From the IMG/VR virus record IMGVR_UViG_3300042556_001058, positions 1 to 42,040 of that record: DNA of 42,040 nt; one strand, written 5' to 3'. The notes under the pieces are model-generated. The model worked only from the letters and a program-made list of their open reading frames with translations, searched no databases and was not told where the DNA came from. The position numbers and the translations under genes are program-made. Below, piece by piece: positions 5,070 through 19,845 of the stretch; the stretch's first letter is position 1, and each line of letters starts with the position of its first letter. The DNA is from a virus.

Positions 5070-5144
5070 TGGTTGCGGGGGAAGGAATCGAACCTACGGC
5101 CCCTGGATTATGAGTCCAATGCTCTACCTCTGAGCTACCCCGCT
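5070..5144 (-). tRNA. tRNA-Met(CAU) with initiator-like unpaired 1:72 position
   Basis: Complete cloverleaf on the minus strand with encoded CCA (5072-5070). D-stem GCTC/GAGC, anticodon loop CTCATAA, T-loop TTCGATT. Acceptor strands are AGCGGGG and CCCCGCA, so bases 1 and 72 are A and A and cannot pair. An unpaired 1:72 is the hallmark used by formyltransferase on bacterial initiator tRNA, and the 3' end CCCCGCAACCA equals the initiator one. The anticodon stem (TTGGA/TCCAG), however, lacks the three G:C pairs of initiators. A CAU anticodon could alternatively be lysidine-modified to read AUA. Confidence 0.85.
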
Positions 5145-5234
5145 ATAACTATATATCTTAAAATCAAAAAACAAAATTTGAAACCTTGAAATCGCCGGAA
5201 AATTTTCGGAGGCTCCGACATCTCCAACCTTTCG

Positions 5235-5948
5235 TCAAAATATTATGGTAAAATCTTCTCTTTCTGGACAGTTTGGCATGTCTAAAGAATTAGGAAAAGT
5301 AATGTGTTTCTTTAACTTTATATTTTCTGATGATGTAAAAGTCAATTCAACAACAGACGGTATGAATTCATTTTGACCTACTTGTGTATATGTGTAGTTG
5401 TTTATATGAACGTGAACCAACTTTTGGTCTAGTTTACTAACAAAGTTGGCCATTTCATTTAACTTGTAATTTTCTTGTATATCATGAAACTCTATTACGA
5501 TGCCAGAAAATTTCTTTGTGTGTATAATTATATTATCTAGTATGTCATATTCAGAACCTTCAATATCACACTTTAGAAAAATATTATCACCTTTATCTTT
5601 CATAACCTGATCGAAAGTTGTTTCTTCGTCAGAATTTCTTTTACCAATATTCTTTGCTATATGTTGCTTTGTACCTGTAAAAAACTGTTTATGTGATTCG
5701 TATATTCCTTTATCCTTTAGCATTTCATCATTAACAGAATTATCATAACCATACAAAGGACAATTATTAATATTGAGAAACTGTTCTTCAAATGACCAAT
5801 CATCATTAATACCAAACGATAACAAACATTCACTTTTCAATATGTCACTTTTATTAACAAGGTAACCACCATCATTGTCTTTACCAACTCGAATCAAATC
5901 AGAACAATAATATGGTTGTAATAATCTAGGCAACTTTATTGTTCTCAT
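5235..5948 (-). CDS. FkbM-family methyltransferase
   Basis: 237 residues from the ATG at 5948, chosen because it overlaps the preceding stop (TAATG) and has GGAG upstream. SAM-dependent methyltransferase of the FkbM/Methyltransf_21 type, which O-methylate sugars or small metabolites. Visible: DNDGGYLV near 25-32, GYDNSV at 67-72, and the family's LK-x-D-x-EG-x-E signature as LKCDIEGSE (125-133), followed by IVIEFHD. It is cotranscribed with a DXD glycosyltransferase, so the acceptor is probably a glycan, on host envelope, virion or modified base; which one is not visible. Confidence 0.75.
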   Translation of the reverse strand: MRTIKLPRLLQPYYCSDLIRVGKDNDGGYLVNKSDILKSECLLSFGINDDWSFEEQFLNINNCPLYGYDNSVNDEMLKDKGIYESHKQFFTGTKQHIAKNIGKRNSDEETTFDQVMKDKGDNIFLKCDIEGSEYDILDNIIIHTKKFSGIVIEFHDIQENYKLNEMANFVSKLDQKLVHVHINNYTYTQVGQNEFIPSVVELTFTSSENIKLKKHITFPNSLDMPNCPEREDFTIIF

Positions 5949-6661
5949 TACCATTCTCCTGACCAATGTTTAATATTCGATTCAGCGTAAAATTGTCTTT
6001 TTATATTTTCCCAATCAATAATTTTTTCACCTCTATAAACTATCGTATCGTTTGGTGGACTTTCTCTGTAAGTTTTAATAAAAGATATTTGCTCTAGGTA
6101 CTTTCGCATTTCATTAAATTTCTCAACACCAGGATTCGTATTAATCATTTCACCAAATATTACCATAGTCAATGCGTGCATGTATGTTTGTGGTCCTAAA
6201 AAGAAAACATTCTTATGGCCTTCATACCGCCTCTTTAAAATCAGTTCAATCGTTTGTGCTTGAATAGGATTTTTTGGTTCAGTTAACATAAAGTCTTGTG
6301 AAAAATCCCAATCTAAACAGGTTGGTAATACACACTTTATACCATCAGTTACAATTTCTGATAACGGCACATTATAAAAACGATCAATGTCCATGTAAAG
6401 ACCACCTTCATTGTATAACTTAAATAATCTCCACAGGTCACTCTTTTCAACTATATGTATATCTTTAATTAGATTGTAATCTCTTTTGTTTAAAGTGTTT
6501 CTAAGATACTCATCAATTTCATTGTCATCATATACGGTGACCGTCCAATCTGGATTCAGATCAATGAGTTTACGTAATCCATTAAGAATGAGTGGTGATT
6601 GACTATTCACCACATCTTTGGTCTTCCAGGCAACGTGTGCAATCTTTGGTATGGAGCTCAT
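5948..6661 (-). CDS. DXD-motif glycosyltransferase (GT32/OCH1-like)
   Basis: 237 residues from the ATG at 6661 (MSSIPKIAHVAWKTKD). The opening IPKIAH-x-W-K and the block KSDLWRLFKLYNEGGLYMDID (73-93) are diagnostic of the Gly_transf_sug family: the DID binds the metal and nucleotide sugar. The catalytic domain fills the protein; no membrane segment is seen. It overlaps the FkbM methyltransferase by one base, so the two are probably made together and act on the same sugar. An open frame extends upstream to 6748, but that would run across the divergent dnaJ start and adds no family residues. Confidence 0.8.
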   Translation of the reverse strand: MSSIPKIAHVAWKTKDVVNSQSPLILNGLRKLIDLNPDWTVTVYDDNEIDEYLRNTLNKRDYNLIKDIHIVEKSDLWRLFKLYNEGGLYMDIDRFYNVPLSEIVTDGIKCVLPTCLDWDFSQDFMLTEPKNPIQAQTIELILKRRYEGHKNVFFLGPQTYMHALTMVIFGEMINTNPGVEKFNEMRKYLEQISFIKTYRESPPNDTIVYRGEKIIDWENIKRQFYAESNIKHWSGEW

Positions 6662-6669
6662 TATAAATA
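6662..6669 (+). promoter_or_regulatory. T4-type late promoter element for dnaJ
   Basis: Exact TATAAATA in the 13-base gap between the divergent glycosyltransferase start (6661) and the dnaJ start (6675). A start site six bases past the element would coincide with the A of the dnaJ ATG, implying a leaderless late mRNA. Confidence 0.5.
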
Positions 6670-6674
6670 CATTT

Positions 6675-7280
6675 ATGAATAAAAACTTATATGATATCTT
6701 AGGCGTTTCTAAAAATGCAACATTTGAAGAAATCAAAGCCAAATACAAATCTCTTGCTCAACAACATCATCCAGATAAAGGCGGCGATCCTGAATTATTC
6801 AAGGAGATAAAAAACGCCTATGAAGTTTTAAGTGATCCTGTCAATAGAAAAAAATATGATACAACGGGTCATTATGAATCTGGTACAAGTCTCCGTGATC
6901 AAGCTCTAGAACAACTCAGCCGTTTATTCTTCAATCTACTTCCAAATATTAATCCTGATCTTGATGATCTAATACTCATCATGAAAAATGAAAGTAGGCG
7001 AGAAAAACTAAACATAAACAATAATATCAATACGTGTAACGGTTATATATTTCGACTAAAAAAGATAATTAAAAAAATCAAAAAGAAAAATGATCAAGGT
7101 GAAAATTTACTAAAGATGTTTGCTGAGAATCAATTAAAGAATCATGAAAATGAATTGCAAAACTTTATACGTCAAATTCAAATAGTTGATATGGTAATTG
7201 AAATGCTTGAAGATTACCAATATGGTGACGTTGCAACATTAATTGAAAACTTTATGAATCCTTCTTCTCAAAATAGTTAA
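6675..7280 (+). CDS. dnaJ: J-domain co-chaperone (DnaJ-like)
   Basis: 201 residues. Residues 1-68 are a J domain: YDILGVSKNAT at the start, helix III with RKKYDTTGH, and the essential HPD at 32-34 that stimulates the ATPase of DnaK/Hsp70. No Gly/Phe region, zinc fingers or client-binding domain follow; instead residues 75-200 are charged helices, partly coiled-coil (LKKIIKKIKKKNDQ). It probably recruits host DnaK to a phage substrate. I chose ATG 6675 over the longer in-frame start at 6618 because the J domain begins there and a late promoter sits at 6662-6669. Converges with the tRNA-Thr gene. Confidence 0.85.
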   Translation: MNKNLYDILGVSKNATFEEIKAKYKSLAQQHHPDKGGDPELFKEIKNAYEVLSDPVNRKKYDTTGHYESGTSLRDQALEQLSRLFFNLLPNINPDLDDLILIMKNESRREKLNINNNINTCNGYIFRLKKIIKKIKKKNDQGENLLKMFAENQLKNHENELQNFIRQIQIVDMVIEMLEDYQYGDVATLIENFMNPSSQNS

Positions 7281-7356
7281 TGGTGCCGGTTGTCGGATTC
7301 GAACTGACCACCTACTGATTACAAATCAGTTGCTCTACCAAATGAGCTAAACCGGC
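7281..7356 (-). tRNA. tRNA-Thr(UGU)
   Basis: Canonical cloverleaf: acceptor GCCGGTT/AACCGGC, D-stem GCTC/GAGC, anticodon stem ACTGA/TCAGT with loop TTTGTAA (anticodon TGT), T-loop TTCGAAT, encoded CCA at 7283-7281. It reads ACA and ACU/ACG-type Thr codons, frequent in this AT-rich genome. One A:C mismatch in the T stem. Confidence 0.95.
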
Positions 7357-7520
7357 TTCGAAGTCAATGCTGTAATCCGTCTTTGTATTTTTGCTTTATC
7401 TTTTGGCTTGCTAGATTTTTCTAGCATATCATTGAGTTGCTTAAGGTTTAAAGGTCCTAATCTTGGCTTTCCATTTTTGGTCAGCATTGGATTTTTCTTT
7501 TTAGTTTTTGAAACTGCCAT
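7347..7520 (-). CDS. 57-residue basic conserved-style protein
   Basis: ATG at 7520 has AAGGA upstream at good spacing. The protein is Lys-rich (MAVSKTKKKNPMLTKNGKPR) with a helical second half (LKQLNDMLEKSSKPKDKAKI) ending QRRITAL. This compact basic design recurs as a small uncharacterised protein of T4-like aquatic phages as far as I recall. Its last three codons and the stop lie inside the 5' end of the tRNA-Thr gene (10-base overlap), so processing of the tRNA would cut the mRNA. Confidence 0.6.
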   Translation of the reverse strand: MAVSKTKKKNPMLTKNGKPRLGPLNLKQLNDMLEKSSKPKDKAKIQRRITALTSKPV

Positions 7521-7538
7521 GATATAGTCCTTAGAAAG

Positions 7539-7608
7539 TGGAGCGGTGGCTTAGATTCGCACTAAGTGAGTAGATTGGACACCTACTCTGGTTCTATACC
7601 CCGACCGC
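7539..7608 (-). tRNA. non-canonical tRNA-Gly(UCC)-like gene
   Basis: Minus-strand, 67 bases plus encoded CCA (7541-7539). Acceptor GCGGTCG/CCACCGC pairs at six of seven positions, discriminator T, giving the CCGCTCCA ending typical of bacterial tRNA-Gly. T-arm CTTAG/CTAAG with loop TGCGAAT. Anticodon arm GTAGG/TCTAC with loop TGTCCAA, consistent with anticodon UCC but with G instead of the near-universal U at position 33. The D-arm is shrunken (GGTATAGAACC) and the variable region short. A strong promoter ends two to three bases before it. Either a degenerate tRNA, an unusual functional one, or a tRNA-like RNA. Confidence 0.6.
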
Positions 7609-7616
7609 ATATAAAG

Positions 7617-7645
7617 ATTGTAACATTATATAGGTTGATTGTCAA
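7617..7645 (-). promoter_or_regulatory. sigma70-type promoter driving the tRNA-Gly-like gene
   Basis: TTGACA at 7645-7640, exact 17-base spacer, TACAAT at 7622-7617. The predicted start is near 7610, two bases before the tRNA-like 5' end. It lies over the 3' end of the SprT-like gene. Downstream in the same direction are the 57-residue ORF and tRNA-Thr. Confidence 0.7.
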
Positions 7646-8162
7646 TAGATATTTGTGGTATATTTCGCCATGCTATTGGCTCTGGTAATAATGGTGCATC
7701 CGGATTCCGTATATCTGCAAACACTTCCCATAACTTTTCTTTAATGGCAAATTTACTAAACAAACCGATTGACACACCATATGCCTCTATTTCCCATGGT
7801 TCATCATAATAATCTATATTTTCGGTAATTCTTTGGCCTCTCCAACGAGTGCCATATTCATTTGTTTCACCATACGCATACTGTTTAACATGAACCATTT
7901 CATGAGCTAATGTTTCCAATATGTCATGTGAACCAGCTATAGGATTTAATTCAATCTGAAATTCTCTAGGTTTATTGCTTTCATTATAATTAATAACGTC
8001 TGCATAACCTAAAGCGTCTATTTTAGAGTCAAACTTAATCCGAACAAAGATATTTTCCAACATCTTTGGTGTCATTAATTGTTCAGCATAAAACATAGCC
8101 GCTCGCCTGACGTAAGGACGAAAGCGTTTCTTATCGGGACATCCGATGATACTGAGTTGCAT
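7626..8162 (-). CDS. SprT-like zinc metalloprotease
   Basis: 178 residues. Zincin-type peptidase: the metal site is HEMVH (87-91, HExxH) and the likely third ligand is in PWEIEAYG (122-129), an arrangement seen in SprT/Spartan-like proteins. Residues 1-80 form the N-terminal helix and beta strands of the fold, and RWRG (107-109 region) precedes the third ligand. Such proteins in phages are uncharacterised; Spartan proteins degrade DNA-bound proteins, so a role in clearing protein from DNA is inference. Its tail carries the promoter for the tRNA-Gly-like gene. A possible late element lies upstream at 8199-8206. Confidence 0.75.
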   Translation of the reverse strand: MQLSIIGCPDKKRFRPYVRRAAMFYAEQLMTPKMLENIFVRIKFDSKIDALGYADVINYNESNKPREFQIELNPIAGSHDILETLAHEMVHVKQYAYGETNEYGTRWRGQRITENIDYYDEPWEIEAYGVSIGLFSKFAIKEKLWEVFADIRNPDAPLLPEPIAWRNIPQISIDNQPI

Positions 8163-8198
8163 CTGAGGTTTCTCCTGTGAAAACCGACACTTCTCAAA

Positions 8199-8206
8199 TA
8201 TTTAGG
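8199..8206 (-). promoter_or_regulatory. candidate variant late promoter (CCTAAATA)
   Basis: CCTAAATA followed by TTTGA lies 37 bases before the SprT-like ATG. It differs from the TATAAATA consensus at its first two bases. A near-identical ACCTAAATATTGA stands at 25297-25304 before another gene. Weak evidence on its own. Confidence 0.25.
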
Positions 8207-8212
8207 TGCTCT

Positions 8213-8659
8213 CTAGATTTCACCAGGTGAAATTTGTTCTACTTCAACACCACATTTGTTTAAGAAGTCTAGGCCGATGGTATCCCGATAAGATTTTCGG
8301 TAATATACTTTTTTAATACCAGCGGTATAGACTTGTTTGGCACAATGAATACAAGGAGCATGGGTCAGGAACATGGTGGAACCATCTCCAGATTCACTGC
8401 CTTTAGCCAGTTTGGCGATGGCATTGGCCTCTGCGTGAATCACTTCGTCCTTGGTTTTGGTGATAACTCCGCCATCTTCATGTATTTCTACCACTTCTTC
8501 ACACTCATTGGTCCATCCGGCAGGCATACCATTGTAACCAATAGATATGATTCTATCATTTTTGACAATGATAGCACCAACTTGTAATCGTTTGGCGGAT
8601 GATAGTTTGGCAAATCTTTCTGCCACATCCATATAAGCGTCAATAAATTTTTGTTTCAT
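8213..8659 (-). CDS. dCMP deaminase
   Basis: 148 residues from the ATG at 8659, which fits the family start (KFIDAYMDVAERFA). Converts dCMP to dUMP, feeding dTMP synthesis. Zinc-binding motifs HAE (75-77) and PCIHC (102-106) are intact; the YNGMPAGW loop (42-49) is typical of deoxycytidylate deaminases. The reading frame is open back to 8698 through the tRNA at 8665-8741, but that region is the tRNA. No clear ribosome binding site lies between tRNA and ATG. Dedicated nucleotide enzymes are standard in T4-like phages. Confidence 0.9.
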   Translation of the reverse strand: MKQKFIDAYMDVAERFAKLSSAKRLQVGAIIVKNDRIISIGYNGMPAGWTNECEEVVEIHEDGGVITKTKDEVIHAEANAIAKLAKGSESGDGSTMFLTHAPCIHCAKQVYTAGIKKVYYRKSYRDTIGLDFLNKCGVEVEQISPGEI

Positions 8660-8664
8660 AGTTT

Positions 8665-8741
8665 TGGTGGGCCGTGTAGGACTCGAACCTACGACCAAAG
8701 GATTATGAGTCCTCTGCTCTAACCAACTGAGCTAACGGCCC
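8665..8741 (-). tRNA. tRNA with CAU anticodon, Ile2-like (or Met)
   Basis: Perfect acceptor GGGCCGT/ACGGCCC, D-stem GCTC/GAGC, anticodon loop CTCATAA, T-stem GTAGG/CCTAC with loop TTCGAGT, encoded CCA at 8667-8665. The core AGCAG-x2-GACTCATAATC and TTGGTCG resembles bacterial tRNA-Ile2, in which C34 is converted to lysidine to read AUA, more than elongator Met. AUA would be common in an AT-rich phage. Lies six bases upstream of the dCMP deaminase ATG. Confidence 0.9.
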
Positions 8742-10793: not shown

Positions 10794-11273
10794 TTAATAC
10801 TTTCTTTTGCCATCTTTATAGTTTGATTGTGCTTGTTTTTTTAACTCATGAACTGCATCTTTATCAAGTTTTTTAATAAAACGAACAGCTGGTTGATCTA
10901 TCGGAATAGCTAACATATCCACACCTTCTTTTGTTTTATAAGAAAAATAATTAAAATTAGAATCAACCTCAAAAAAACAATTATTCCATCTATAGGTAGG
11001 ACTAAATGAAGATTCTGCTGTGACAAAAACTAATTGTGTTTCTTTATTTCCACATTTTGGTAATTGATTAGGACGAAATGTTAATGATTTCAATTTAACA
11101 TGAGGTTGTTGTGTTTTTACTTCATATCTTTTTCCATCAACCAATAAATCTTTTTGACTATCATAAGGGTTATATGAAGGCACAACTTTATGTCCTAGTG
11201 CGCTGTAGTGAGCAATTGCAATTTTTTCACCGATGTCACCTAAACTTTTCATTTTATCTTTATCAAATATCAT
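10794..11273 (-). CDS. PD-(D/E)XK-like nuclease inside the clamp-loader operon
   Basis: 159 residues. The pattern fits the restriction-endonuclease-like fold: helix with Glu (GDIGEKIAIAHYSALG, E16), then beta strands with D42 (QKDLLVDG) and the E51-V-K53 catalytic pair (KRYEVKTQ). This E...D...ExK spacing is that of small PD-(D/E)XK enzymes such as resolvase- or Vsr-like nucleases. The second half is a less clear beta/helix region. It overlaps the gp44 stop by four bases (ATGA) and lies before gp62, so it is coexpressed with the clamp loader. A role in trimming or repairing replication intermediates is inference. Confidence 0.6.
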   Translation of the reverse strand: MIFDKDKMKSLGDIGEKIAIAHYSALGHKVVPSYNPYDSQKDLLVDGKRYEVKTQQPHVKLKSLTFRPNQLPKCGNKETQLVFVTAESSFSPTYRWNNCFFEVDSNFNYFSYKTKEGVDMLAIPIDQPAVRFIKKLDKDAVHELKKQAQSNYKDGKRKY

Positions 11274-12205
11274 TTTTTGAACTCACAATCTACCATAATT
11301 TCAGTTAAACAAGCCGTCATATTAATTTCGTGGTCAGCCACAAAAGCTGATTGATATTGATATTTGGCGAGGATAAGAACTAGTTGTGGTACAGCACTAG
11401 CATCAAGAACATCATATAAACCATCGTATAGTTTACGATAGATTTTTACAGGATCATTGTCGAGATTATTGGTGACCCACTTACGAGCAGAAGCAAAATC
11501 TTTTTCTTTAAGTGCTTTGATTAGGGCTTCAAGTTGAATATCAGCAACATTAGAAAGAATACCAGAATCAATGGAGCCAGAAACCGAGTATCGCTGAAGC
11601 TCATTAAGAATTCTTCGATTATCAGGAAAGTGTTTGGTGATGACGGCGGCAACAACGTCTTTGGAGTATTTGATTCCCTCTTGTGAAAGGATGTTTTCAA
11701 CCCGTTTAAAAAACTGTGCCGCCAGCTTTGGTTTAGAACCGTTGATCTTAAAGTCGATAACAGAACAACGGGAATGGATCGGATCGATGATCCGATTTTT
11801 GAAATTACAAGTGAAAATGAACGAGCAGTTTGAGGCAAATTCTTCAATGGCTCCTCGTAGAGCAGGTTGAGTTGAATTAGGATTGAGATAATCAGCCTCA
11901 TCAATGATGACAACTTTTCTGCCACCCATGAGCGACATTGAAGAAGCATAGTTCTTAATTTTGTTACGGAGGACATCAATGCCAGACTCATCAGAGCCAT
12001 TGATGATAATAAAATCGCAACCAACCTCGTTGCACAATGCTTTAGCAACAGTTGTTTTTCCGACACCTGCCGTACCAGATAAAAGAAGATTTGGTATCTC
12101 CTTTCTCTTAACGAACTCCTGAAAAGTTTCCTTGATCGCATCTGGAAGAATACAATCTTCAATCGTCTTTGGACGATACTTTTCGACCCACAATAAATGT
12201 TCCAT
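11270..12205 (-). CDS. gp44: clamp loader ATPase large subunit (gp44)
   Basis: 311 residues, close to T4 gp44 (319). AAA+ ATPase that with gp62 opens and loads the gp45 clamp. Walker A GTAGVGKTT (44-52), Walker B IDEAD (101-105), the sensor region FTCNFKNRI and the SRC arginine-finger motif (145-147) are all intact; the opening WVEKYRPKTIEDCILP is typical of RFC-type subunits. GGGAG lies at good spacing before the ATG. Small ORF and gp45 lie upstream, so the T4 order 45-44-62 is kept with two insertions. Confidence 0.95.
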   Translation of the reverse strand: MEHLLWVEKYRPKTIEDCILPDAIKETFQEFVKRKEIPNLLLSGTAGVGKTTVAKALCNEVGCDFIIINGSDESGIDVLRNKIKNYASSMSLMGGRKVVIIDEADYLNPNSTQPALRGAIEEFASNCSFIFTCNFKNRIIDPIHSRCSVIDFKINGSKPKLAAQFFKRVENILSQEGIKYSKDVVAAVITKHFPDNRRILNELQRYSVSGSIDSGILSNVADIQLEALIKALKEKDFASARKWVTNNLDNDPVKIYRKLYDGLYDVLDASAVPQLVLILAKYQYQSAFVADHEINMTACLTEIMVDCEFKK

Positions 12206-12449: not shown

Positions 12450-13121
12450 TTATTCTCCAATCTTTGATTCTTTTGGTTCGATGGCGATCCAATATTCAAT
12501 TTCGTCTTTCGTGTTTTTGAAATGACTAATACCTTTGAATGAAATCTCAACAGCATAACTTCCAGGAATCAATTTGATGTTTTCTGTTTTGAATACGACC
12601 TTGTATTTCTTACCATCACCTTCAGCAACTTGAATATAGTTTGTATGAGCAGAATCATCAAACGCATCAAATGCACTTAGTTGAACAGATTCACCATCAG
12701 ATTCAACAGCAATATGAGGTGAACTCAGAACGCTAGCCGTTTTCATAATGTTGGCATAATCTTCTTCTGTTAGAGTAAAGGCAACATCTTTAGAAGGCAA
12801 AGTTAATTCTTTTTCTGGTGGTACAACAATCATTTCTTTTGCTGTCTTACGATACTTGGTACTAGAACGACCAGATTTGAAAATAACATTTGAATCATCA
12901 AATTGTAATTCAGAATCTTTGTGTAGTGAATGTACCGATAAGAATTGATTCAGGTCATACACACAAAAATCTTGTGGAAACTCATCTTTAAGTGTGGCTT
13001 GGGCCAATACAGTTTTACCAGCCGATACTGTGGTAAGTTTTGTGCCTTTCTTGAATTGAATGCCTTGATTGATTGTAGAAAAATTCTTCAATACTGCCAG
13101 TGTTTCATTTGATAACTTCAT
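12450..13121 (-). CDS. gp45: DNA polymerase sliding clamp (gp45)
   Basis: 223 residues from the ATG at 13121, which has GGAGAAAACA just before it; T4 gp45 is 228. Forms the trimeric ring that tethers the polymerase and, in T4, activates late transcription by gp55-polymerase. Matches T4 in the start MKLSNETLAVLKNFSTINQG, the VYDLNQFLSVHSL strand, SGRSSTKYR, and the C-terminal ENIKLIPGSYAVEI region. Gene order with gp44, gp62 and regA confirms the call. Late promoters and gp55 in this window make the transcription role likely here too. Confidence 0.93.
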   Translation of the reverse strand: MKLSNETLAVLKNFSTINQGIQFKKGTKLTTVSAGKTVLAQATLKDEFPQDFCVYDLNQFLSVHSLHKDSELQFDDSNVIFKSGRSSTKYRKTAKEMIVVPPEKELTLPSKDVAFTLTEEDYANIMKTASVLSSPHIAVESDGESVQLSAFDAFDDSAHTNYIQVAEGDGKKYKVVFKTENIKLIPGSYAVEISFKGISHFKNTKDEIEYWIAIEPKESKIGE

Positions 13122-13141
13122 TGTTTTCTCCATTATAAAAA

Positions 13142-14314: not shown

Positions 14315-14584
14315 TTAGGCTGTGAAAGAATATCCAGCACGTAAGGCAGCTTGCACCAATGCTTTAGATGGTGTGCCTAAACGATAGTAACGAACTTTAC
14401 GTCCATCGGTACCGGTGCGAGTGTTGGTATAGATACAATGTCCTTCTTGACGTAGCTCGTCAATACGAGCAGAAACATTGCTGATGCCGAAACGGCGTTG
14501 TGCTTGAGCAGTTGTAAAGGTGTTGTAACCGTCTTGCTTCTTCAATACATTGAGCATACGCTCTTTAGCTGATAACTTAGCCAT
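14315..14584 (-). CDS. small winged-helix DNA-binding protein
   Basis: 89 residues from the ATG at 14584, which has GGAG eight bases upstream. Residues 5-75 read as a helix-turn-helix with wing: ERMLNVLKKQ, FTTAQAQRRFGISNVSARIDEL (recognition helix) and a YYRLGT wing strand. The family recurs in T4-like aquatic phages. It is monocistronic: a sigma70-type promoter with a 12-base palindrome lies upstream (14640-14678) and a terminator downstream, which fits a regulator controlling its own gene; that is inference. Confidence 0.75.
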   Translation of the reverse strand: MAKLSAKERMLNVLKKQDGYNTFTTAQAQRRFGISNVSARIDELRQEGHCIYTNTRTGTDGRKVRYYRLGTPSKALVQAALRAGYSFTA

Positions 14585-14639
14585 TATATAAACTCCAATC
14601 ATAGTTAAAAATAAATCCTTGCGTATTGCAAGTTCTCAC

Positions 14640-14690: not shown

Positions 14691-15956
14691 TTATCTGCCA
14701 ACTTGTGGCAAATACTTTGCCTTGGTTTCTTCCCAAGTTAAATAAATCAAATCATCATAGAAAAGTGTTTCATATGAAACATTATTTTTCTTTTGTAGTT
14801 GCCGAATACGACCTTTGGCATACTTTGTTTTCCAGATGTTTGTCAATGCTTCTTCACTGGTATCAAAAGCCTTTACCAGTTTATCTTCTGTAATTTCTTT
14901 TCGTAAGAATTCACTAGTGTTATTGTAGAGATAACTAAAATAGATACCACGTTGGTGTTCTGTTCTCGTTTTGTCTTTTGAGATACCAAGTTTTGGATAG
15001 GCAAAATGTAATGAACGATTTTTATGGTCTCGTTTGAGTGGTAATCCTTGTGGATTCTTTGCTTCCCACCATTCAAAATATTTACGAGGATGTTTTTCTT
15101 TTATCCAATCAAAAATTAATTGTTTGGTTTGTTTTGTTGGTTCAAAGGCAACAGAACCTGAGGAGAAACCCATGGCATTCCAATGTTCAAGTCCGTCGTA
15201 TTGAGAAAGGCCTCCTGATTTTGTTTTTCCATACAATGAAGTAGTTGTGACTCCTACCAACACATCGCCATATTTTGCCTTCCAATCATTTTGAACCTTA
15301 TCTGATAGACACAGTAATGCGAGTAGTTTACCACCCATATAATTAAAACCAAGTGGTTGTAATGGCACGATTGTTGAACCAATTGCCGTATGATTAATCA
15401 TGTTCTGAGAAGTTTTTACATCTCGATCCCAACCAATTGCTTTATCTCTAGGAGTGAGATCCAGAAAGTCTGAGGAGATACAGATGACACCAAGATACTT
15501 GTCGGTTTTTCTATCTTTAACAATGTAATATAGATTTCTGCCAATATTAGAATTGTTTTTCATTGTAGAAGAAAATGTTCTTATGGCATTCCATTCATCA
15601 ACACGATTCGTATTTGCCAAATACATTTGTGGTTCTAAATTTTGAAAATCATCTGGATCTTTAGGAATCCAAATATTGTTTTTGACTTTATTGATGATTG
15701 CCGCTTGCTTATCATCTTTCCAAGCAACGTCTGGTTCACCAAACATATTCATTCTTGCGGTACCAGGATACCGTTCTTTTACTTCACACCATTTTTGATA
15801 TAAAGTATATTCACGAACATCCATTTGTGAAGCATATTCTAAATCTTGTGTAACAGTTTTTATTAGTTGTTCTTCGTCAATATGTGGACATCGATCTGGT
15901 GGATTATCTTCTGTCCACCGTTTCCATTGTGTTTCTACAGGTTCTACTCTTGCCAT
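14691..15956 (-). CDS. DruA-like (DUF4338) protein
   Basis: 421 residues. The centre (about 140-260) matches the DUF4338/DruA pattern: LYYIVKDRKTDKYLGVICIS, SSDFLDLTPRDKAIGW, then a run of NHTAIGSTIVPLQPLGF, GGKLLALLCLS, DWKAKYG and TTSLYG. In cellular DruA proteins the same order is seen (S-S-x-L-x-L-x-RD-x2-IGW, N-x-S-x-x-L-P, DW-x2-YG). DruA is a core subunit of Druantia anti-phage systems with no settled biochemical activity. No other Druantia gene is adjacent; the next genes are peptide deformylase (one-base overlap) and heme oxygenase. The similarity is from motif reading only. Confidence 0.5.
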   Translation of the reverse strand: MARVEPVETQWKRWTEDNPPDRCPHIDEEQLIKTVTQDLEYASQMDVREYTLYQKWCEVKERYPGTARMNMFGEPDVAWKDDKQAAIINKVKNNIWIPKDPDDFQNLEPQMYLANTNRVDEWNAIRTFSSTMKNNSNIGRNLYYIVKDRKTDKYLGVICISSDFLDLTPRDKAIGWDRDVKTSQNMINHTAIGSTIVPLQPLGFNYMGGKLLALLCLSDKVQNDWKAKYGDVLVGVTTTSLYGKTKSGGLSQYDGLEHWNAMGFSSGSVAFEPTKQTKQLIFDWIKEKHPRKYFEWWEAKNPQGLPLKRDHKNRSLHFAYPKLGISKDKTRTEHQRGIYFSYLYNNTSEFLRKEITEDKLVKAFDTSEEALTNIWKTKYAKGRIRQLQKKNNVSYETLFYDDLIYLTWEETKAKYLPQVGR

Positions 15957-16528
15957 TATTTGAGTTTCAACTTTCTCATAATTTTATTTCTTTTATTCAT
16001 GCCAGACTGTAAAGCCATTGGCTTTGTCAGACTAGTATACACAATACCGTTCATGTGGTCAAGCTCATGTTGAAAACAACGAGCAGATATGCCATTAAAT
16101 TTTGCGTGTTTTATTTCACCGTGATAGTTTTGGTATTCAACCATAATTTCTTGTGGCCTGGTAATTCTCAATCCTAAAAATGGAAAAGATAAACACCCTT
16201 CTACCATGTGTACCTGCTCTTCGGATTGTCCTGTTATTTTTGGATTAAAATATGCCACATATTGATCATCAGCACCCATTACAAATACACGATAAGGAAA
16301 TCCACATTGATTGGCAGATAGACCAATACCACGATGCAGCCTACAAGTTTCAGCCAATGATTCAGCAAATTCTTCCGGATTTACAGGTGGATTCTTGAAA
16401 TCGAATTCTGGTAATACTTGCCTTAAAATTGGATCAGTTTCATGAACCAATTTAAAATATTTTGATTGTTGTTTCTTTACCTCAACCTTGGCGGCTGTTT
16501 CTGTGTCATATTTAAATATTTCACTCAT
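15956..16528 (-). CDS. def: peptide deformylase
   Basis: 190 residues. Removes the formyl group from new N-terminal methionines. The three family motifs are intact: GIGLSANQ (67-74), EGCLS (110-114, metal-binding Cys) and QHELDH (153-158, metal His and catalytic Glu). About 30 residues precede the usual start and the C-terminal tail is basic. Phage deformylases are common in aquatic T4-like phages, where they are thought to help rapid maturation of proteins. Overlaps heme oxygenase by eight bases, so the two are cotranslated. Confidence 0.93.
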   Translation of the reverse strand: MSEIFKYDTETAAKVEVKKQQSKYFKLVHETDPILRQVLPEFDFKNPPVNPEEFAESLAETCRLHRGIGLSANQCGFPYRVFVMGADDQYVAYFNPKITGQSEEQVHMVEGCLSFPFLGLRITRPQEIMVEYQNYHGEIKHAKFNGISARCFQHELDHMNGIVYTSLTKPMALQSGMNKRNKIMRKLKLK

Positions 16529-17066
16529 TTATTTTCTCCTGTAATTCATCAAATATTCCCATAGATAAATCGAATCCTTTTAATGCTTCATCAACTAAAT
16601 CAAAACTTAATTTGGCATCAATCGCTTTAATCAAACCTGGTCTATCTTCAAATTGATATGCTTTGCCTGAACCTGGAACTCTTTTAGAAATTGCTTTGCC
16701 TCCATATAAATCTCCCATATGCCTAACATAGACATGAGCAAATATATCTTTTTTCCTATCTGAGTAATATAAATCGACAATGTGTTGTCGATACTTTTCC
16801 GTGGCAGGTAATATTGGTTCAATTACTGTATGTCCCAATTCATACAAATCATCATAAATGTAACTTGTCCTTTTTATATCTTTTAGATCCAATAATAGAA
16901 AAGACATTTCAGCAAAATATTCTATTGCACCGTAAACAACCGACATCTGTTTTAAATACAAAGCATAATGTTCTTTTGTGATATTACCATGTAGTAAATA
17001 TTGAACAAATGGTTTTGCTTCAGCTTCACGATGTTTGGCATTCGTGTGTTCTCTTAATATACTCAT
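16521..17066 (-). CDS. ho1: heme oxygenase
   Basis: 181 residues. Opens heme to biliverdin, iron and CO. The likely axial histidine is H12 in NAKHREAEAKPF, and the distal-helix signature is GDLYGGKAISKRVPGSG (118-134), both characteristic of HO1-type enzymes; VYGAIEYFAE also fits. Shorter than typical bacterial or cyanobacterial HO1 (about 220-240). Known in cyanophages, where it feeds bilin synthesis; no bilin reductase gene is visible in this window. It overlaps gp46 by four bases. Iron release or oxygen/redox effects would be alternative uses. Confidence 0.88.
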   Translation of the reverse strand: MSILREHTNAKHREAEAKPFVQYLLHGNITKEHYALYLKQMSVVYGAIEYFAEMSFLLLDLKDIKRTSYIYDDLYELGHTVIEPILPATEKYRQHIVDLYYSDRKKDIFAHVYVRHMGDLYGGKAISKRVPGSGKAYQFEDRPGLIKAIDAKLSFDLVDEALKGFDLSMGIFDELQEKINE

Positions 17067-18778
17067 ATTACCACCTGACTAAAATTGTTTTTCTTTTCGA
17101 ATCTAATTATACTTCTAAACTTATCAAACAACTGATCGCCTTTGTGTGAGATAACGAATACATTGGTGTCTGTTCCCATTTCATGAATCAGTTTTAGAAA
17201 TTCTTCGGTGCCAACCGTATCAAGACTTGAATCGAACACCTCATCAAGTATCAATAGATTGGTGTTGGTACTATTCTTCAATTTGGCAATCTGGCGCCAT
17301 GTAAATAATAATGCCAGGTCAATACGCATCTTCTCACCTTCGGAGAAATTGGCATATGAGAATTCGTCACGATGTCTTGATTTGATTGTTTCTTCAAAGT
17401 TTTCATTGATGTTGAAGTTCACAAAGAAATCCATGGCAGTCAAATACTTATTAATCAACTTGTTCATGATAGGTAAGTATTGTTTGATAATCTTTGTTTT
17501 AATACCGGTATCTTTTAGTAATACGGAAGAATAATCAAAATAATGTTTCTCGACCGAATACCCTTCTTGTTGTTTGAGAAACTCAGCCAACTCAGTTTTT
17601 AGTTCTTTGAGTTTGGCATTTTCATCTTCTAACGAATCTTTCTTGGTTGCCAAATCACCAATTTCTTTCCTGAGTTTATCAATGTAAGAATGTATTGTTG
17701 ATACGGTAGTATTGTGTTTGATAATTTCATTGTTGTGTGCCTGTATGTGTGTAAGTATTTTTTGTATTTCAGACATCCGATTACTAGTATCTTCAATCTG
17801 TTTCTCTATATCAACCAAGGCGGCATCAACCTCACCTTTAGTTTGTTGTAAATTAGAAATTTGTTTTTGCCTAAATTCTTCATCAATATCTTGTTTACAA
17901 GTTGGACAGTCACTATGATCGTGGTAAAAACAAACATCTTTTTCAATTTTCTTTAAACGAGATTCTAGTTTAGATTCGTAATGTACCAATTTGGTGCTTC
18001 GCTTTTGTATTGCCATTTGATCAGAAACTTTACTATTCAACACATCAATATGTTTTTGAATAAGAACAATTTCACCACCAAGTTTTTGGCATTGTGATTC
18101 AGAATCTTCTATTTCTTTTTGTTTCTTTTGAATCTCGTCATCATTGTGTTTTTTATGTTCTTCAATCGATTCTCTCTGCATCTTAATCTTCTCAGCAGTC
18201 AAATCCATTTGATACTTTAATTTTTGGCTACTATCTTTAATGACTGCCAATCGTTCTTTGACAATCGAATTCATTGAAGAAAAGATTTGAATGTCCAATA
18301 AATCTTCAATAATTAACCTACGATCAGATGCCGAAAGTTGCATGAATGGCACAAAAGAAGCAGAGCCAAGGATAACAATCTGTGTAAATGATTTGAAATT
18401 TAATTTAAGAATTTGCTTCTCAAGTATTTCTTGGTAGTCCCGTGAAGCGGCATCTTGATTGAGTAACTGGCCATTACAGTAGATTTCAAAGACATTAGGT
18501 TTAATACCACGGACAATCTTATACATCTTTTTACCAATCGTGAATTCAATCTCAACCACACATTGTTGTTGATTGATTGAGTTCAACAGGTTTGGTTTAT
18601 TGATTTTACGAAATGGTTTACCAAATAAACCAAAACATAAGGCGTCCAGAATGGTCGATTTACCAGCACCATTTTGGCCAATGATAAGTGTGTTGGGTGA
18701 TTTGTTTAGTTGTATTTCTGTAAAAGAATTACCAGTTGATAAGATATTTTTATATCTTATTTTTTCAAATAAAATCAT
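17063..18778 (-). CDS. gp46: recombination endonuclease subunit gp46 (Rad50-like)
   Basis: 571 residues, T4 gp46 is 560. ATPase of the gp46/gp47 complex that processes double-strand breaks and origins of recombination-dependent replication. Walker A GQNGAGKST (34-42), long coiled-coil arms on both sides of a zinc hook CPTC (291-294), the signature region FSEGEKMRIDLAL, and Walker B LLILDEVFDSSLD near residue 510. All expected parts are present. Starts in an overlap with gp47 (ATGA). Confidence 0.95.
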   Translation of the reverse strand: MILFEKIRYKNILSTGNSFTEIQLNKSPNTLIIGQNGAGKSTILDALCFGLFGKPFRKINKPNLLNSINQQQCVVEIEFTIGKKMYKIVRGIKPNVFEIYCNGQLLNQDAASRDYQEILEKQILKLNFKSFTQIVILGSASFVPFMQLSASDRRLIIEDLLDIQIFSSMNSIVKERLAVIKDSSQKLKYQMDLTAEKIKMQRESIEEHKKHNDDEIQKKQKEIEDSESQCQKLGGEIVLIQKHIDVLNSKVSDQMAIQKRSTKLVHYESKLESRLKKIEKDVCFYHDHSDCPTCKQDIDEEFRQKQISNLQQTKGEVDAALVDIEKQIEDTSNRMSEIQKILTHIQAHNNEIIKHNTTVSTIHSYIDKLRKEIGDLATKKDSLEDENAKLKELKTELAEFLKQQEGYSVEKHYFDYSSVLLKDTGIKTKIIKQYLPIMNKLINKYLTAMDFFVNFNINENFEETIKSRHRDEFSYANFSEGEKMRIDLALLFTWRQIAKLKNSTNTNLLILDEVFDSSLDTVGTEEFLKLIHEMGTDTNVFVISHKGDQLFDKFRSIIRFEKKNNFSQVVI

Positions 18779-19845
18779 GCTTGTTCAGTATTCAAGGCTT
18801 CCACATAAAGTTCACGCAGAATGTTTTTCAATCGGTCATTGTCGATACTTTCTTCTTGAATGGTATCAACATACTTGTTCAGAATAGTTAGAGTATCTTC
18901 TGCTTGATCAATCATATCATCTTCAAGGCCTTCTGTCAAGTCAGTAAAGTCCTCAGCAATGGTAATATCGATTGGGTTTACATCATATAATCTGGCCAAA
19001 AACTTATCAAACAGATGTGGATTTGTTTTGTTGATTACCACAACCTTTACATATGTGTTGGTATATTTTGTTAAATCTTTATTGATGATGTCGGTAATTG
19101 TTTCTTCTTTATCATCATAAATGATTTTGTGAAACATTACATTTGGATTTTTTATGAAAGTAAGGTCACGGCTGATAAGATCAAAAAGATGAAAACCTCT
19201 AGGGTCATTATAATCTTGCCAAGTAAGTTCATACGGGTTTCCAAGATAATGTATATTGTCAGCTGAACTCCGATGATGATAGTGACCGCTAAAAGTAAGA
19301 CTAAACTTTCTGAATAATTCACGACTTAATCCTTCTTGACTTGGCATGCCACGATGCATTGCAAAGCCTTGAATTTCAAAGTGGCCCATGCAAATTTCGG
19401 CAGGCGTATTTTTTATTTCTTCCAATGATTGTTGGTAATTTTCTGAACAGATCCATGGCATCATGCAAATATCTGTTTCACCAACTGTGATTGTGGTTGG
19501 TTTAGAAATAACTTTAATGTTTGTGTATTCTTGTAATAACAGGTCTACCGAATTTACATCATTGGTATTCTTAAAGTATGTATCATGATTGCCAGCCAAC
19601 ATATGTACCTGAATGTTTCTAGCATATAGTTTGTCAAAAAACATTTCTCTGGTACGTTTGAGTGAAAAAAAGTTTACATATTTTCTACGATCAAAAGTAT
19701 CACCCAATATAAGGACAGTATTAATGCCGTGTTCTTCAAGAGTTGGAAAAAAAGTATCACGATAGAATCGTTCATAATAATCTAAAAAATGTATTGAATC
19801 ATTACGAGCACCAAAATGCTGATCAGTTATAACTGCTACTTTCAT
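18775..19845 (-). CDS. gp47: recombination endonuclease subunit gp47 (Mre11-like)
   Basis: 356 residues, T4 gp47 is 339. Mn-dependent nuclease partner of gp46. Phosphoesterase motifs are intact: D8-x-H10 (ITDQHFG), GDTFDR (48-53), GNHD (85-88), MGHFEIQG and SGHYHHRSS. The C-terminal 100 residues are the capping and gp46-binding part, less conserved. Overlaps the upstream cysteine-cluster gene and gp46 by four bases each, so all are one translation unit. Confidence 0.95.
   Translation of the reverse strand: MKVAVITDQHFGARNDSIHFLDYYERFYRDTFFPTLEEHGINTVLILGDTFDRRKYVNFFSLKRTREMFFDKLYARNIQVHMLAGNHDTYFKNTNDVNSVDLLLQEYTNIKVISKPTTITVGETDICMMPWICSENYQQSLEEIKNTPAEICMGHFEIQGFAMHRGMPSQEGLSRELFRKFSLTFSGHYHHRSSADNIHYLGNPYELTWQDYNDPRGFHLFDLISRDLTFIKNPNVMFHKIIYDDKEETITDIINKDLTKYTNTYVKVVVINKTNPHLFDKFLARLYDVNPIDITIAEDFTDLTEGLEDDMIDQAEDTLTILNKYVDTIQEESIDNDRLKNILRELYVEALNTEQA

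Follow-up and report, generated by a model that had tools for sequence, protein, structure and literature searches.

The gene D1 of a T4-like phage encodes a member of the DUF4338/DruA superfamily, lies in the phage replication and recombination operon and is under purifying selection. Its product has a GNAT-like predicted fold and belongs to a viral clade separate from cellular DruA; related phages carry a second paralogue, D2, directly beside replisome genes, and a marker of the Druantia helicase DruE was not detected in related phage records. We favour, at somewhat short of even confidence, the reading that D1 and D2 would be GNAT enzymes of the replication module that place an acyl-type modification on phage DNA, with no other part of Druantia involved.

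D1, its neighbourhood and its relatives

The window, meaning the whole stretch of DNA analysed, is a viral record of 42,040 bases, a 42 kb fragment, whose gp23 is nearest that of Methylophilales phage Melnitz (65.3%), followed by Pelagibacter phage Mosig (65.1%). Positions 14691-15956 hold one intact gene on the minus strand, D1, with an ATG start, 421 codons, a TAA stop and a product of 421 aa; the plus-strand reading of the same interval is interrupted by stops. When D1 was searched against profile collections, residues 132-352 matched PF14236 (DruA) with an E-value of 3.2e-20 and 72.9 bits, far above chance and above the curated Pfam cut-off of 27, and the original prediction of a DruA homologue at this position was thereby borne out. 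D1 also matched the PADLOC DruA1 model (E=3e-17) and phrog_19197, a family of unknown function (E=1.7e-31), which is the full-length family of cyanophage D2, D1 forming a distinct paralogous clade. An NCBIfam search with D1 gave no match, and a sequence search of solved structures gave nothing significant. The original prediction had named a missing DUF4338 match or a different fold as grounds for abandoning it; the match was strong and the predicted fold GNAT-like. That the PF14236 match arose by chance or from composition has a negligible probability, as nothing was found in favour of this, every profile and fold test was contrary, and the scores lay far above cut-offs and shuffled controls; an independent structural report on cyanophage homologues, in the portion covered here, also speaks against it (PMC12774648).

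The gene order of the locus is gp47-gp46-(other)-deformylase-D1-winged helix-glycosyltransferase-like-gp45-gp44 (Table 1), and the operon that had been proposed around D1 is therefore real, being one of replication and recombination genes. Three predicted tRNA genes (Met, Thr, Met) lie in the left part of the window, at 5070-8741. In relatives, deformylase was the next gene upstream of D1 in 101 of the 122 loci that can be judged, the winged-helix gene was the nearest gene downstream in 87 of 133, and a heme oxygenase, which in the window fills the gap between gp46 and deformylase, was found in only 12 of 144 D1-type loci, all of these counts, like those for D2 below, coming from loci collected by similarity that are not independent samples. 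Both neighbours singled out beforehand, deformylase and heme oxygenase, are real; the first is conserved and the second incidental, and with so few occurrences heme oxygenase was dropped as a part of the D1 unit.

Table 1. Features of the D1 locus and of the D1 protein (window positions)
Feature	Position	Strand	Basis or remark
gp44 clamp loader	11270..12205	-	PF21328 Gp44_lid
gp45 sliding clamp	12450..13133	-	phrog_223, PF09116
Winged-helix protein directly downstream of D1	14315..14602	-	PF14090
PF14236-matching region	14901..15563	-	residues 132-352 of D1
Predicted GNAT-fold core	15147..15542	-	about residues 139-270; AlphaFold, Foldseek; boundaries inferred from DSSP
SQY motif	15198..15206	-	residues 251-253; invariant in D1 and D2
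TTTSLYG strand motif	15228..15248	-	residues 237-243; T238, T239, L241 and Y242 invariant in the A1 alignment
QPxGxNxxGGKL loop and helix start	15324..15359	-	residues 200-211; invariant residues in the A1 alignment
RDxxIGW motif	15429..15449	-	residues 170-176; R170 and G175 invariant in the A1 alignment
Peptide deformylase	15956..16528	-	PF01327 E=5.8e-35; TAA stop overlaps the D1 start (TAATG)
Heme oxygenase	16521..17066	-	PF01126 E=1.5e-16; incidental neighbour
gp46-like (SbcC-like) recombination nuclease subunit	17063..18778	-	phrog_77 E=7.6e-178
gp47-like (SbcD-like) nuclease subunit	18775..19845	-	phrog_100 E=4.2e-117

Homologues of D1 were present in the Pelagibacter phages Mosig (58%) and HTVC008M (53.5%) and in 25 Synechococcus phage records (about 30%), and scans of IMG/VR found at least 597 relatives for the window protein, besides hundreds of the D2 type. 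By contrast in scale, 84,980 genomes of bacteria and archaea yielded only 11 loci when scanned. Six of them (L250, L251, L256, L257, L259 and L260) are probably binned phage contigs and not cellular genes, because T4-like phage replication genes lie on the same contigs. The first of these (L250:484-7011), binned as Thermoplasmata, has its viral-type homologue flanked by genes remotely like gp41 and gp43 and is probably a divergent T4-like phage. The non-T4-like loci L253 (Polynucleobacter), L252 (a Rhizobiales MAG) and L254 are all near integrase and resolvase genes; L252 and L254 are viral-type DruA genes in bacterial bins without T4-like genes. The Polynucleobacter homologue lies in an integrative island of Polynucleobacter sp. 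Tro8-14-1 (L503:170-10691), which adjoins guaA and carries a tyrosine integrase, a viral-type DruA homologue, a C5 DNA methylase, an EcoO109I-type restriction enzyme and a resolvase.

A second paralogue, phylogeny and constraint

A whole-record search revealed two DruA-like copies, D1 and D2, in many whole phage records, and among the 15 records with D1 that reach 100 kb or more, 11 held both; the genome part expected to hold D2 falls outside the 42 kb window. D2 was directly after gp41 in all 68 freshwater-type loci and directly after gp43 in all 23 HTVC008M-type loci, while cyanophage-type D2 followed gp44 in 39 of 40 loci and preceded gp62 in 35 of 44. Overlapping stop and start codons join deformylase to D1 (TAATG), gp43 to D2 (TTGA) and gp41 to D2 (ATGATG). 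In HTVC008M (L344:4536-5660) and in L345-L349, D2 lies directly after gp43 or gp41 and D1 is also present. In one 176 kb record, a short frame of 203 codons (G587:C1:142371-142775) gave a third match to PF14236. Only some cyanophages carry D2 (about 30 of more than 400 T4-like cyanophage records), a patchy distribution which argues that it is dispensable in many hosts.

In a tree with transposon-type DUF4338 as the outgroup, D1 (99/99) and D2 (100/100) formed distinct clades within a viral-type group (95/95) to which cellular Druantia DruA does not belong. The phylogeny with cellular DruA that the original prediction had called for thus sets the viral clade apart, with D1 outside the cellular Druantia DruA subfamily, a group whose own unity is weakly supported. 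Recent capture of D1 from a Druantia locus is ruled out by this tree. D1 and D2 are old paralogues that go back to an ancient duplication. Several long branches meet in the tree and its root does not settle which side was donor and which recipient of the gene; the earlier suggestion that the defence protein derived from a phage gene therefore gains no support.

Distances between D1 proteins tracked those between gp46 proteins (Mantel r 0.93, a value that none of 200 permutations reached) and also those of gp45, gp44 and deformylase (Mantel r 0.71-0.86). The mean distance of D1 was 0.29 vs 0.41 for gp46, 0.22 vs 0.42 for gp45 and 0.24 vs 0.43 for deformylase; D1 was about as conserved as gp44, and its dN/dS against relatives was 0.04-0.17. 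Co-inheritance with gp46, slow evolution and low dN/dS argue for a standing phage function and not for a recently captured weapon or decoy, since such constraint is not expected of a mobile element or of a gene that has lately been caught up in an arms race. Among the roles that had been suggested, a normal phage function is hence the one favoured: the gene is passed on vertically with gp46 and evolves slowly, its positions are tied to the replisome, and there are two paralogues.

The occurrence of D2 in three different replisome junctions across lineages would also suit a selfish gene of the homing type, moving about among replication genes, as would the other viral-type copies in integrase/resolvase islands and the fusion of some DUF4338 proteins to transposases. 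However, the position is fixed within each lineage, D1 distances follow gp46, and no nuclease or recombinase domain, including a homing-endonuclease nuclease motif, was detected in D1 with Pfam or PHROG, and we consider such an origin highly improbable.

From established knowledge of the YprA family, we take DruE to be a YprA-type helicase that carries an MZB domain. This domain (PF09369) was found in 0 of 19 phage records, including eight of 141-244 kb, in a search whose control was positive in 8 of 14 genomes. The DruE YprA-type helicase that Druantia type I requires together with DruA was thus not detected in the 19 records, in line with the prediction that D1 stands without other Druantia genes, and D1 appears to work outside a Druantia system. 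In addition, DruB, DruC and DruD are not named in the annotation of the stretches of Mosig and HTVC008M that we looked at. These results bear on the idea that D1 is a weapon, that is, a DruA-derived effector that excludes superinfecting or co-infecting phages. DruA does belong to a defence system, and in the Polynucleobacter island a viral-type homologue is paired with restriction-modification, beside the EcoO109I-type enzyme and the C5 methylase; this one bacterial island is what stands of the idea. In phages it found no positive support. D1 evolves slowly, is inherited together with gp46 and sits in the replication module, and the DruE-type helicase marker was missing from the 19 records despite its positive control; these points make a weapon improbable.

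Predicted fold, conserved motifs and known relatives

An AlphaFold model of D1, built from an alignment of 49 viral relatives, reached a pLDDT of 89 and a pTM of 0.85. Foldseek matches of this model in the PDB, from E=0.006 downward, were almost wholly GNAT acyl-CoA transferases, with weak E-values (0.006-0.2 to solved GNATs) of which none passes E=0.001. A separate model of D2 again matched GNATs, and a GNAT fold is thus predicted for both proteins, at weak E-values. The predicted fold of D1 agrees with the published description of DUF4338 as a GNAT domain (PMC10853773). No Mom structure was among the Foldseek matches of D1, and given this and the weak GNAT E-values the substrate of D1 is not readable from the fold. 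Giant-virus proteins were among the best structural matches of D1, namely A0A3G4ZXG3 of Faunusvirus (E 1.9e-21) and A0A5K0UAJ3 of Yasminevirus (E 5.8e-17).

Conserved motifs cluster in the predicted core (Table 1). RDxxIGW aligns with RDrwIGW of transposon-type DUF4338. Within QPxGxNxxGGKL, residues Q200, P201, G203, N205, G208, G209, K210 and L211 are invariant in the A1 alignment and kept in D2, and GGKL is also kept in cellular DruA. Following strand 190-198 and leading into helix 208-215, this motif occupies the place of the acyl-CoA loop (motif A) of GNATs, which suggests that it may hold the acyl-CoA pyrophosphate as in GNATs; the conserved loop also suggests that D1 may bind acyl-CoA and transfer an acyl group. 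By eye, SQY matches the Y of cellular DruA (SSVY), of the transposon type (GTCY) and of Mom (VVY159). The dense invariant residues in the GNAT core argue for a working active site. In D1 of HTVC008M (L083:7974-9116), roughly 38 residues close to the C-terminal helix region are missing, whereas relatives 90% identical to it retain them.

DruA of Druantia type I is homologous to D1 over 255 aligned columns, covering the GNAT core and the C-terminal part, and shares the GGKL, TTTxxYG-like and S-x-Y motifs; D1 differs in belonging to a separate viral clade and in its setting, which is the replication module of a phage instead of a defence island, without a detectable DruE-type helicase. Homology of this extent, C-terminal part included, counts in favour of a decoy that would resemble DruA and poison the Druantia complexes of the host, and an inhibitor of this kind had been suggested. 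Against it, a deep split divides the viral clade from cellular DruA, the core, which looks catalytic, is invariant and not degraded, purifying selection is strong and there are two paralogues; with no positive support for it in phages, we regard such a mimic as very unlikely.

Profile comparisons, judged by shuffled controls, placed the viral type close to cellular DruA (score 214, shuffles at most 9) and linked it to transposon-type DUF4338 (44, shuffles 10), which in turn matched Mom (64, shuffles 9). The viral type compared directly with Mom scored within the shuffles, with an hhalign E of about 0.3-0.5 that, like all these pairwise E-values, refers to a database of one and is not literal. 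A direct D1-Mom link was therefore rejected, and D1 is not a member of the Mom family by profile similarity; the indirect route through transposon-type DUF4338 alone stands, and this chain argues for a common GNAT-type origin and for DNA as a plausible substrate, but goes no further. The likeness of phage Mu Mom (PF25680) to D1 is reached by that route; by eye, both proteins have an Asn where the core helix begins and a Tyr that follows strand 5. With 241 aa, Mom is without the N- and C-terminal domains of D1, and the region that holds its invariant Asp149 (SFAD) reads TTTSLYG in D1, without an acidic counterpart. The transposon-type proteins (LASH / ETFVD / CYRAANW) have RDxxIGW and core homology in common with D1; they differ in keeping the Mom-like Asp, which is absent from viral and most cellular DruA proteins, and in that they can be fused to a transposase. 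In L269:1-2322 (minus strand), a single reading frame joins a transposon-type DUF4338 domain to a C-terminal part that resembles a transposase.

Proposed function and significance

We propose that D1 would be a GNAT-fold enzyme and a standing member of the replication-recombination module in one large group of aquatic T4-like phages. D1 and D2 would be produced together with the replication and recombination proteins, and D1 would act without any other Druantia component. We infer that D1 would be catalytic, would use an acyl-CoA-type cofactor and would modify phage DNA during or just after synthesis, like its distant relative Mom; a DNA-bound protein is the main alternative substrate. DNA is favoured because the superfamily occurs in DNA-linked contexts, namely Druantia, a transposase fusion, a fusion to DndF (PMC10853773) and a restriction-modification island. 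Several findings count against DNA modification: a direct viral-Mom profile link and Mom D149 are absent, the Foldseek E-values to GNATs are weak, deformylase, the most constant neighbour of D1, is translation-linked, and many cyanophages do without D2. For these phages, the literature covered records no hypermodified base.

The same GNAT enzyme may instead acylate a protein of the replisome, of phage late transcription or of the host. The GNAT fold of D1 and D2, whose PDB matches act mostly on proteins or small molecules, the coupling to replisome genes and the deformylase neighbour would all fit a protein acyltransferase, but the known contexts of the superfamily are DNA-linked and no protein target is indicated, and we consider this somewhat unlikely. 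Returning to DNA modification, a bolder form of that proposal is that, in aquatic T4-like phages, a replisome-coupled pair of DruA/Mom-superfamily GNATs installs an undescribed acyl-type DNA modification, with Druantia DruA as a defence-side relative of the phage enzyme; we offer this as a speculation that is rather unlikely to hold in full.

Phage-encoded DruA-like proteins are already known: the portion of PMC12774648 covered here describes them in six Synechococcus phages, including S-PRM1, by structural annotation with Phold. The S-PRM1 protein is a D2 member of the family of D1, and that portion gives structural similarity only, with the D1 lineage, the paralogue pair and the replisome coupling absent from it. 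One Mosig gene is already annotated as DUF4338 and one cyanophage copy as Mom. In the literature searched, we found no report of the D1 lineage, the D1/D2 pair or the replisome coupling, no mention of a D1-type gene in work on pelagimyophages and Melnitz, and nothing further that links DruA to GNAT or Mom.

No biochemical activity is given for DruA in the literature covered. The viral lineage, with an intact, slowly evolving core, a fixed place beside DNA polymerase, helicase or clamp-loader genes and no detectable Druantia helicase, offers a simpler setting for the function of the family. Phage PF14236 proteins should, as a caution, not be labelled defence genes. If D1 is a DNA modifier, then phages that are very abundant in fresh water and in the sea carry a modification that has gone unnoticed.
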